Origin: Nanobdellota archaeon
GTDB taxonomy: Archaea; Nanobdellota; Nanobdellia; Woesearchaeales; UBA583
Direction: 5' to 3'
Length of the DNA stretch: 57,971 nucleotides
Assembly: GCA_022565615.1 (NCBI GenBank)
Contig: JAIUMM010000006.1
Location: forward strand, 1-57,971
In this document: piece by piece, positions 11,333 to 19,110 of the stretch
Numbering within the stretch: the stretch's first letter is position 1
How the letters are laid out: each line of letters starts with the position of its first letter
Made by a program: the position numbers and the translations under genes
The notes under the pieces: model-generated
Told to the model about the DNA's origin: nothing
Databases searched by the model: none
The model's input: only the letters and a program-made list of their open reading frames with translations

Positions 11333-12088
11333 ATGAAAGATAAGATAATTGTAAGGGGTGCAAGAGAGCATAATCTTAAAAATATTGATGTTGAAATTCC
11401 TAAATTCTCTTTTACAGTAATTACAGGACTTAGTGGTTCAGGAAAATCTACACTTGCTTTTGATACTATTTATAATGAGGGAAATCGTAGATATGTTGAG
11501 AGTTTATCTTCATATGCAAGACAATTTTTAGGAAATTCTAATAAACCTGATGTTGATAGTATTGAAGGTTTGAGTCCTGCTATATCAATTGAACAAAAAA
11601 CAACTTCAAAAAATCCAAGATCAACTGTTGGAACTGTAACTGAAATTTATGATTATCTGCGTTTATTATATGCAAGAGTTGGAAAACAATATTGTCCAAA
11701 ATGTGGGGAAGAAATTTCTCCTCAATCTCCTCAAAGTATAGTTACTACAATTTTAGGAATGTATAATGAGAAGAAAATTATGATTCTAGCTCCTATGATT
11801 GTAGGACAAAAAGGAACGTATGAAAAAGTATTTGAAGATTGTAAAAAAGAAGGGTTTTCAAGAATTAGAGTAGATGGAGAAATATATCACACAGATACTG
11901 TAAAAGATGAGGTCACACTTGAGAGATATGAGAAACACTGGATAGAGTATGTAATTGATAGAATTACGGTAAATCAAGATAATAGACAACGATTGACAGA
12001 GGCAGTAGAGCAGGCTCTACATTTTTCAAAAGGTAATGTGAAGATATTAGATGTAGAAAAAGAGAAGGAAGTTTTAAAAACATTATAA
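11333..12088 (+). CDS. uvrA: UvrA N-terminal portion only (first Walker A + UvrB-binding domain); truncated relative to full-length UvrA
   Basis: [102 protein letters not shown]; ends KEVLKTL-stop at 251 aa. No downstream UvrA sequence in any frame before the next gene. Confidence 0.85.
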
Positions 12089-15261: not shown

Positions 15262-15951
15262 ATGCACAGAGAGATTCACAAATCAAGGCATATTACTGTA
15301 TTAATTATTGCAACTATAATATTTTTACTTGGAATTTTAGTTGGTGCACAAGTAGAACAATTTCGTCTAGAGAAATTAGAAAGGGAATTTAGAGAACAAA
15401 GTAGAATTTCTGATGAAATGCAAGCAGAAATTGAATATATAAATTATTTATTAGATTCTCAAAGAAATAATGGTTATTCTTGTCAATTACTAGTAAATTC
15501 TTACCTTGATAGTATTAAGCGTTTAGATGACATTGTATTTTCTCTTGAAAGATATGAATCTAGTGCAATTACAAGACTTGAAGATTATTCGTTAATAAAA
15601 GAAAATTATTTTAATCTTCAAACAAGATATTATATACTTGGAAATAGAGTTAATTCTTTATGTCCAAATTCTTTTGATACAATATTATATTTTTATACTA
15701 ATGAAAAAGATTGTCCAGAGTGTGAAGATCAAGGTTTATTTTTAGATCATATTAAAAGGAAACATCAAAATAATGTTATGATTTTTTCATTCGATATTCA
15801 AAGTTCAGTAACTATTGTTTCAATGCTTTCAAATAATAACCAAGTTAAATCATATGAAGTTCCTACATTAATAATAAATGGAGAGAATAGACTTGATTTT
15901 TCAAATGTTGAAATAATTGAACAATTTTTAGAAATCTCAATGGAAAATTAA
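15262..15951 (+). CDS. membrane-anchored coiled-coil protein with C-terminal thioredoxin-like CxxC segment
   Basis: N-terminal TM, coiled-coil stretch, then TILYFYTNEKDCPECEDQG..FSFDIQSS..VPTLIINGE (CPEC and cis-Pro-like VPTLIING). Confidence 0.55.
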   Translation: MHREIHKSRHITVLIIATIIFLLGILVGAQVEQFRLEKLEREFREQSRISDEMQAEIEYINYLLDSQRNNGYSCQLLVNSYLDSIKRLDDIVFSLERYESSAITRLEDYSLIKENYFNLQTRYYILGNRVNSLCPNSFDTILYFYTNEKDCPECEDQGLFLDHIKRKHQNNVMIFSFDIQSSVTIVSMLSNNNQVKSYEVPTLIINGENRLDFSNVEIIEQFLEISMEN

Positions 15952-16058
15952 TGGAAATTAATAGTTAATTACAATAAATTGTTTAGAAATAAATTAATTA
16001 TTATAAATGATTACTAATATTAAATAAATAGTTTTTTAAAGTAAATTTTATTAATGAA

Positions 16059-16203
16059 AATTGTAAGGTAAAGCAATAGCGAAAATCTAGAAATATATTG
16101 ATGTGTTATGTTTGTGGGCTTGCATGTATATTATTTACCTCTGTGAGTTCTCTTTGTCTAAATACTAAGTTGACATCTGAAGAGTTCTAGATACCTTACA
16201 ATT
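16059..16203. ncRNA. candidate structured RNA of unknown class
   Basis: AATTGTAAGGTA (16059-16070) is perfectly complementary to TACCTTACAATT (16192-16203), 12 bp; nested TCTAGAA (16086-16092) / TTCTAGA (16185-16191), 7 bp, with a 15-nt one-sided bulge AAGCAATAGCGAAAA. Interior folds by hand into two further arms. Less AT-biased than neighbouring spacers; no ORF. Confidence 0.55.
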
Positions 16204-16275
16204 CTTAAAAAATTAAAACGTATTTTCTATACAGTGATTGCATTAATTTAAATTATATGTATTTAAAAATAAATT

Positions 16276-19110
16276 ATGATTTATAGTCAATTATTTAGAT
16301 ATATTAGATTAATTTTAGTTATAATGTTAATTGGAAGTATATTGTCAACTGTTAATGCAACTTCATTTTATCAAGATAATGAAGGTAAATATTTAGTTTT
16401 TACTACAAATTCAAACCCTTTAATTTCATTAAATTTAGAGTCAAGATCCAATTCAGTGTTAGTTGTTGATGAAATTTTGATTAATAATGTTAAAAGAGAA
16501 TATTCAAATCTTCCAAGACAAATTCAACCTTTTACTTCAGTTAATTTGAATTTTGAAATTCCTTTAGTAGAAACTTTAAGTTCTACTCCAATTCAGATTA
16601 AAATTAATTCTCTAGACTCAACTTCTCAAGAACTTGAAATTGCAGGAGATCCAACTCAATTTCATTTAAAATATGTTGATTCACAACAATCTACTTTAAC
16701 TTCATATAGAGTTGAATCTAATGGAAATATTTCATTAAACCAACTTGAAAATTCTAATATTATAATTAGAGAGGGAGATTCAAGAGTTTTTTTAGACTTC
16801 CCACTCGAATTGATTGAATATGATGTGAGAATAAATTCAAATTTAGAAAAAGATATGTCAACTACTTCTAAAAAATTAGCAGAATTACCAAAAATTATTT
16901 CTTTAGATACTTCTTCTTTAACTAAAGGTAATTATCCTTTACAAATTACTTATAGGGATGTAACTAATCAAGTAAAGCAGTTAAATTTAAATTTACTTGT
17001 TTTAGAAGAACCATTAAAAATTACAAAAGTATATTCAAATCAAGATGAGATGTCATATAACTATTATTTTAATACTAAATTTAGTGACTCAGAAGTATAT
17101 TCGAATTCGAGAAATTTTGATTTAGTATTTGACACAAATCAAGAAGCAAGTTGCTATAAAGAAGAATTAGCAACATTTAATGATTTTGTGACTTCAACTC
17201 CTCTAACTAATCAAGTGACCACTCATAGAATTCCAATTTCTATTGAAAATGCACGAGAAAATGGAATTTGGATAATGTGTCAAAATTTAAATTCTTCTTT
17301 TGCAGAACTTGATAGAGTTTATTTGAGTGAAGCATTATTTAATAAAAGAGATTTATTCTCTGCAGTTTTTTTAGAAAATATTCAACCTATTAGAATAATT
17401 AGTGCTGAGCCAAATGGTTTATTAACTTCTGAACCAATTATAATAGATGCTAGAACTAGTTCAAGAGGAGTTTGTAAATATTCTGTTGAGAGTTTAGAAA
17501 TTTCTTCAGATTTAGATTCTACTGAAGAGCAAACAAGGCATAGAAAAACTAATGTTTTAGCATCTCAAAGAGGAGAATTTGAAATAAAAATTGATTGTTT
17601 TGATAGATTATATAATACTGATACAAAAACACTACAGATTAATATTGACTCAACTGAGCAAATTAGAATTGTAAGTTTTGTACCAAAATTGGTATTTACT
17701 GAACTTGCAAATATTGAAATTCAAATAACTGATACATCTGCAACTTGTAGAATTGAAGCACCTTCAATTAGAGAAGCTTCTTTTACTCCTGCAAGAGTGG
17801 AAGGAAGAACGTTATATTTTGAAGATGTTGGACCTTTTATAGAGGAAGGTAAAATTGATATGAGATTAATTTGTGTTAATCAAGAGTCTCGAGTTTCAAG
17901 AAATGAATTTTCTTTAACTTTTGATAAAACTCAACCAACAATTTCAGGTGTTAGGTTATTTAATTCAAAATTGGGTCCTACTACTTTTTTTTCAGACTCT
18001 TCTTTTATGAGAATAGAAGTTGATTCTACAATTCGAGATTTAGCTTATTATCTGGTTGAATTCACAAATTCTGATATTGTAATTAATTCTTCAAGTTCTA
18101 GAATTGATGTTACAGATGATTTTTCTCAGGATACAAGTTTAAAAATTAGGGGGTTTGATATATATGGGAGAAGTACTAACGAATTTGTTTCAAATTATCA
18201 ATTTGATACAACACCTCCTGCAATTAATATCAAAATGGGTTCTTCTTCAACTAAATTAATTATTGAGTGTGATGGAGGAGTTTCAGGATGTAATACAGTT
18301 CAATATGATTTATCTTCTACAAGAGATAATTGCCAACCAAGAACAAGTTATGAAAATTCATCAGAAATAGATGTTTTTGGGAAAATTTTTATCTGTGTTA
18401 AAGCAATTGATAATGCAGGAAATGAAGTAACTTTAATAGAAGAAATTAATGCAAGAGACAATTTCACACCACCTCCAAGAGAGGATGACCAAAATCCTCC
18501 TATAATTGATGATCAAACTCCTCCAAGAAATGATACGACACTTCCACCTATTGTAGATGATTCACAAGATGATGATCCATTTAGACCAATTGATCCTATT
18601 GCACCTGATGAGGAAGAATTCAATTGGATTTTACTCTCAGCATTTGCATTTGTATTACTTTTAGTTGGAGCAGGAGGATATTATGCATATAATAGAGGAT
18701 ATTTAGATAATCAATTAATCGCTATGGGAGTTAAGAAAAAGAGAACTAATTCATCAAGCGATCCTTACAAAGGAGTTGTTCCTTACTCTCAAATTCCTCG
18801 AAAAGATTTAAATAAAGGTTCAACAGCATCAGCTATTGCATCTCAAGGAGTTTCAAATACTGGTAAAACTCCAAATAAATATGATTCACATTTAAGTAAA
18901 TTAAATGAGTTTATTGATTCAACTTTAAAGAAAGATTCAAATATGTTTGATGAATTTAAAAAAGATAATACTAAAGGAAAAACTGATAACTTTAAAGATA
19001 CACTTCTTAAAAATAGAAAAAGTGTAAAAGATGAAAAAGAAAGCTTTGAAGATTTTTATAAGTCAAGTAAAGAAAAGGAAAAGAATGAATCTAATAAAGC
19101 AAAAAAATAA
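16276..19110 (+). CDS. large membrane-anchored extracellular protein, Ig-like/beta-rich, with cytosolic tail
   Basis: Signal peptide, long beta-rich ectodomain, acidic Pro-rich linker (DDQNPPIIDDQTPPRND), TM WILLSAFAFVLLLVGAGGYYAY, then charged Lys-rich tail. Confidence 0.6.
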   Translation: MIYSQLFRYIRLILVIMLIGSILSTVNATSFYQDNEGKYLVFTTNSNPLISLNLESRSNSVLVVDEILINNVKREYSNLPRQIQPFTSVNLNFEIPLVETLSSTPIQIKINSLDSTSQELEIAGDPTQFHLKYVDSQQSTLTSYRVESNGNISLNQLENSNIIIREGDSRVFLDFPLELIEYDVRINSNLEKDMSTTSKKLAELPKIISLDTSSLTKGNYPLQITYRDVTNQVKQLNLNLLVLEEPLKITKVYSNQDEMSYNYYFNTKFSDSEVYSNSRNFDLVFDTNQEASCYKEELATFNDFVTSTPLTNQVTTHRIPISIENARENGIWIMCQNLNSSFAELDRVYLSEALFNKRDLFSAVFLENIQPIRIISAEPNGLLTSEPIIIDARTSSRGVCKYSVESLEISSDLDSTEEQTRHRKTNVLASQRGEFEIKIDCFDRLYNTDTKTLQINIDSTEQIRIVSFVPKLVFTELANIEIQITDTSATCRIEAPSIREASFTPARVEGRTLYFEDVGPFIEEGKIDMRLICVNQESRVSRNEFSLTFDKTQPTISGVRLFNSKLGPTTFFSDSSFMRIEVDSTIRDLAYYLVEFTNSDIVINSSSSRIDVTDDFSQDTSLKIRGFDIYGRSTNEFVSNYQFDTTPPAINIKMGSSSTKLIIECDGGVSGCNTVQYDLSSTRDNCQPRTSYENSSEIDVFGKIFICVKAIDNAGNEVTLIEEINARDNFTPPPREDDQNPPIIDDQTPPRNDTTLPPIVDDSQDDDPFRPIDPIAPDEEEFNWILLSAFAFVLLLVGAGGYYAYNRGYLDNQLIAMGVKKKRTNSSSDPYKGVVPYSQIPRKDLNKGSTASAIASQGVSNTGKTPNKYDSHLSKLNEFIDSTLKKDSNMFDEFKKDNTKGKTDNFKDTLLKNRKSVKDEKESFEDFYKSSKEKEKNESNKAKK

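Follow-up and report, generated by a model that had tools for sequence, protein, structure and literature searches.

DPANN archaea have tiny genomes, and their RNAs are little known beyond rRNA, tRNA, RNase P RNA, SRP RNA and guide RNAs. The SRP RNA, expected in every archaeon, is closed by a terminal helix, and the archaeal RNase P RNA is another independent structured RNA gene. The 6S RNA is a small free-standing RNA known from bacteria, in which a closing helix is followed by a rod with large unpaired segments. In Y RNAs, both ends pair into a long stem, followed by a pyrimidine-rich region that is unpaired, and these RNAs can be found near RNA-repair genes.

Here, we analyse a 145-nt RNA element (16059-16203, forward strand) located between two genes of a Nanobdellota archaeon, in a stretch of 57,971 nt of contig JAIUMM010000006.1 that we call the window. 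An earlier note, made from the letters alone, had proposed a candidate new structured RNA closed by a perfect 12-bp helix. Comparison with related genomes supports this candidate, as it has homologues with compensatory changes, lacks an Rfam match and is preceded at a fixed distance by a promoter-like box. In the literature, we found no RNA of this kind described for these archaea.

Comparison with known RNA families

The search of Rfam (Rfam 15) gave no match at gathering scores, nor at E<=10 for positions 15900-16330, and the four homologous loci had none at E<=1, so the element is not recognised as a member of any known family. The element shares with 6S RNA the free-standing small size, the closing helix and the rod with large unpaired segments, but its large bulge is one-sided and lies directly above the closing helix, and it has a junction hairpin. 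With the Y RNAs it has in common a long terminal stem followed by unpaired, pyrimidine-rich sequence, and in two of the five genomes that carry the element it lies beside rtcB. However, the TROVE/Ro60 protein (PF05731) is absent from five genomes of the genus, in a search whose control was positive in Deinobacterium, and the element is without an Rfam match. On present evidence it is therefore not a Y RNA, and we rejected this candidate.

The earlier note could not match the element to SRP RNA, RNase P RNA, tRNA or a classical C/D box sRNA, and in all four cases the searches agree. The archaeal SRP RNA model (RF01857) finds nothing at the element, although the two RNAs have a closing terminal helix in common. 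SRP RNA was rejected as its identity, the sister species G001 carrying both the element and a separate SRP RNA with helix-8 features (59.7 bits with RF01857). No SRP RNA was detected with RF01857 at E 5 in G000 or in G002 to G005, which is taken as limited sensitivity of the Rfam model; in this genus, the SRP RNA has probably diverged strongly or been reduced. RNase P RNA (RF00373) was likewise rejected, as the genome has its own copy elsewhere, on contig C4 (C4:54739-55040, L051), with the conserved boxes GAAAAGTCC and ACAGAATGTGGCTTA. This copy scores only 27 bits, below the Rfam cut-off, and its boxes are recognisable. No tRNA or tmRNA is found at the element by ARAGORN, which reports only tRNA-His and tRNA-Ser, at 57.6-57.8 kb. 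Reading the five aligned sequences by eye, we saw no C/D or H/ACA (ANA) box fixed in place. Among the ribosomal RNAs, the 16S (C3:10023-11474) and 23S (C3:44118-46966) genes of contig C3 lie on one strand, separated by about 33 kb, and do not form one operon (L074, L075, L076).

Homologues and structure of the RNA

In the window, the two strands of the closing helix P1, AATTGTAAGGTA (16059-16070) and TACCTTACAATT (16192-16203), pair exactly as the earlier note had written. The same is true of the second helix P2, TCTAGAA (16086-16092) with TTCTAGA (16185-16191), and of the 15-nt bulge AAGCAATAGCGAAAA (16071-16085) on one side between them. The element is also less AT-biased than its surroundings, as claimed, with a G+C content of 31% vs 10% and 14% in the flanking spacer. 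Perfect 12-bp inverted repeats with the spacing of P1 occur several times in the window, mostly as pure A/T; shuffled windows contain roughly one that has three or more G/C, and such a repeat is present in 68 of 2000 shuffles of the spacer. The fold has an MFE z of -1.96, equalled or bettered by 7 of 200 shuffles, and the exact element reaches -2.4. The fold is thus better than shuffled sequence, yet modestly so, with z about -2. Judged from the window alone, P1 is nearly a chance event, and the evidence beyond chance is comparative.

A DNA similarity search with the spacer in 40 relatives, of the kind the earlier note had suggested, gave AT-rich noise only, because even genomes of the same genus are distant (flanking proteins 25-37% identical). 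Homologues were therefore sought via gene order, following the upstream gene at 15262-15951, and the covariance models were applied to both strands of those homologous loci that had a minus-strand match. Behind the homologues of this gene in G001 and G005, we found a spacer element built in a similar way from other helix sequences. The elements of the window, G001 and G005 have a core in common, TTTGTC/GTC...TAAGTTTGA. From these three sequences we made a covariance model (R1) on a hand-guided alignment with one shortened loop, and the sequences were padded with N because MAFFT alone misaligned the 3' core.

R1 was then run on 353 genomes of the order and recovered the three parents and two new copies, both from sequences absent from model building: G002 with 57.3 bits (E 8e-10) and G004 with 44.0 bits (E 1e-6). 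The next best match has 25.6 bits and looks, by eye, like coding sequence. A second model, R2, was made from all five sequences, and its search of 378 genomes of the class gave no hit outside the genus. Within the genus, no copy was seen in the sixth genome (G003, 88% complete), where a separate search with lax filters gave nothing above 18 bits and an Lrp-type gene now occupies the place after its 229-aa gene. The RNA is thus present once per genome in five of the six genomes, and since the searches of order and class found no others it is single-copy and limited to the genus.

According to our model, P1, the one-sided bulge, P2 and a hairpin, P5, are kept in all five homologues. Four of the seven modelled pairs of P1 are changed on both sides, with 100% of the cells paired, as are seven of eight pairs in P2 and three of five in P5 (CUUGCA at 16119-16124 with UGUGAG at 16142-16147), a hairpin that differs in length among the species. 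The bulge is on the same side in every arm duplex and varies from 11 to 19 nt. Over P1, P2 and P5 together, standard pairs make up 97.9% of the cells in the five natural sequences, and both sides are changed in 14 of 20 pairs vs a mean of 6.0 in shuffles (0/500 shuffles reach the observed count). The covariation score of 0.83 compares with 0.28 in shuffles, and slid versions do not exceed 0.17. A second alignment, fitted with R2, agrees with these counts; however, A4 and A6 are alignments fitted to the model and the first one was hand-guided, and all pair counts lean toward the model for this reason.

Only the two independent hits and an arm-swap test are free of this bias, and the whole comparison covers only five sequences. 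Since the alignments lean toward the model, the arm-swap test was done without a column alignment: the 5' and 3' arms of each species were cut at UAUAU and GUUUGAU, and all 25 combinations were folded. For arms of one species the energies range from -15 to -27 kcal/mol, with a mean of -21.0, and for swapped arms they average -10.2; the true pairing ranks first among the 120 permutations. In each duplex of own arms, P1 and P2 are separated by a one-sided bulge, here 11-17 nt long. The fold energies of all five homologues also beat their shuffles, with z from -2.1 to -4.7. The earlier note would have counted a lack of homologues with compensatory changes in both helices against an RNA. Such homologues are found in five species, through gene order and the covariance model and not through the DNA search.

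The interior of the element is less regular. An unpaired UAUAU (16094-16098) is located directly inside P2 in all five homologues. It is followed by a short helix of weaker support, P3 (GAUGU, 16100-16104, with ACAUC, 16173-16177), proposed by RNAalifold and with one double change in alignment A6. The other homologues have GAUC or UAUC as its 5' strand; two form a GAUC/GAUU helix and two close variants, and the third pair, read by hand, is C-G in four homologues and G-C in the window. Support for P3 and P4 is weak, and P4 is the weaker of the two. Beside P5, there is a long conserved unpaired stretch, about UUUUCUUUGWYUAAAUUAA...UAAGUUUGAU in alignments A4 and A6, represented in the window by CUUUGUCUAAAU (16152-16163). 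In the same alignments, the 3' core CUAAGUUGA (16165-16173), with the consensus UAAGUUUGA, is conserved and lies partly in P3 and P4. The best conserved unpaired segment is the one around UCUUUGUCUAAAUUAA, exposed beside the junction.

The earlier note had drawn this interior differently, with two arms at 16092-16097/16127-16132 and 16139-16142/16181-16184. We found no comparative support for them, 157 of 500 shuffles give arms that are equal or better, and they clash with the conserved P5. The three-way junction drawn from them falls together with the arms.

Promoter-like box and neighbouring genes

A TTTAAA motif at 16035-16040 on the forward strand is the putative TATA-box core of the RNA's own promoter. 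In all five homologues it starts 24-29 nt before the 5' end of P1, or 27-31 nt before position 1 of the model, a window of 5 nt. In equally AT-rich DNA, TTTAAA is expected by chance at a rate of 0.012 per position, so its occurrence in five of five is far from chance. This is where an archaeal TATA box sits for a transcript starting at P1, and from the conserved distance the start of P1 is most likely the start of transcription. The independent transcript suggested by the earlier note is supported by this promoter-like box, and the box that it had named, TATTATAAATGA, is not the conserved one. In the genome G005, a second small hairpin, GGTCTTGTATTAACAAGACT (L028 2446-2465), comes directly after P1 and is possibly a terminator or a 3' extension.

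The upstream gene (15262-15951, forward strand) lies outside the RNA and encodes a membrane-anchored CxxC protein of 229 aa. It is directly 5' of the RNA in three genomes (the window, G001 and G005) and 2.9 kb away in G002; both G002 and G004 have a different 5' neighbour. The protein carries a CPxCEDQG motif and has homologues in 35 of 40 genomes of the order, without a Pfam or NCBIfam family. On the 3' side, the window has a gene for a 944-aa protein (16276-19110) 73 nt past the RNA. It is secreted and anchored at the C-terminus, is found in the genus only among 40 genomes, and has no Pfam domain. In G001 and G004, the 3' neighbour is rtcB, on the same strand and about 60 nt past the RNA, and G005 and G002 have a type II/IV secretion ATPase gene there, in convergent orientation. 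The RNA thus holds no fixed position before one kind of same-strand gene, as a 5' leader or riboswitch would. No reverse transcriptase or Cas protein that would indicate a link to defence (retron, CRISPR) is encoded in the nearest ten genes. Further upstream in the window (11333-12088), an ORF of 251 aa contains only the N-terminal part and the interaction domain of UvrA; as a full UvrA is far longer, this gene appears truncated or broken.

Possible mode of action

The comparison establishes the structure predicted for P1, P2 and P5 and its conservation in the five species, together with the fixed promoter-like box and the independence from the neighbouring genes. We consider it highly probable that the element is a gene in its own right, free-standing and conserved, for a structured RNA that acts in trans. 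Such a gene would have a TATA promoter of its own and produce a noncoding RNA of about 145 nt whose 5' end coincides with P1 or lies no more than a few nucleotides from it. P1 and P2, with the one-sided bulge between them, would join both ends into a rod whose interior holds the unpaired UAUAU, the short P3, the hairpin P5 of variable length and the conserved unpaired stretch. The closing helices would protect the ends, and the conserved single strand may be presented to one or more proteins that bind it, forming an RNP. RNAs that act as a protein-binding scaffold typically combine conserved single strands with a frame that varies and covaries, and for this particular mode we see the case as about evenly balanced.

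The main rival to the scaffold is base-pairing with target RNAs. Here the element would be a trans-acting antisense RNA, its conserved A/U-rich unpaired stretch pairing with the targets and the rod serving as a stability module only. The exposure next to the junction of the segment around UCUUUGUCUAAAUUAA fits such a role. However, the homologues have no rRNA target in common, as their best complementary stretches in 23S and 16S are at different places in each, and an A/U-rich segment would pair weakly; we regard the antisense role as rather unlikely. It is also quite improbable that the element is a very divergent housekeeping RNA (SRP RNA, RNase P RNA, 5S rRNA, Y RNA or guide sRNA). Its size and closing helix resemble several of these, and no SRP RNA is detected in five of the genus's six genomes, but the reading is already largely refuted by the Rfam searches, the separate SRP RNA of G001, the RNase P RNA elsewhere in the window's genome and the lack of a Ro60 protein in five genomes.

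A cis-acting element, either a leader or in the 3' UTR of a neighbouring gene, could explain the short distances to the 944-aa gene and to rtcB, and the place after the 229-aa gene in three genomes. The earlier note had kept open a 5' leader of the gene at 16276. However, the 3' neighbour varies and is convergent in two genomes, the 5' neighbour varies in G002 and G004, and a TATA box separates the upstream gene from P1 in five of five. Since the neighbours vary in this way, a leader or 3' UTR element is excluded in practice and its probability is very low. An origin of P1 by chance, as an inverted repeat in AT-rich DNA, would suit a repeat and a folding energy that alone are barely unusual. 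The comparison of sequences refutes it, with compensatory changes in five species, independent hits of the model, the arm-swap test and the fixed distance to the promoter-like box, and we give it practically no weight.

The free-standing RNA is clearly under selection, as it is single-copy, has a promoter-like box of its own and is conserved across five species that share only about 25-37% identity in the neighbouring proteins. It may represent a class of archaeal RNA that is new, confined to one genus of Woesearchaeota-type DPANN archaea and not derived from a known RNA family, and that has an RNP and a cellular role of its own; we find this proposal as easy to accept as to doubt. With its sequence, ends, structure and alignment, the RNA could be deposited as a new family and is a defined target for metatranscriptomes and for work on RNA-protein complexes in such lineages.
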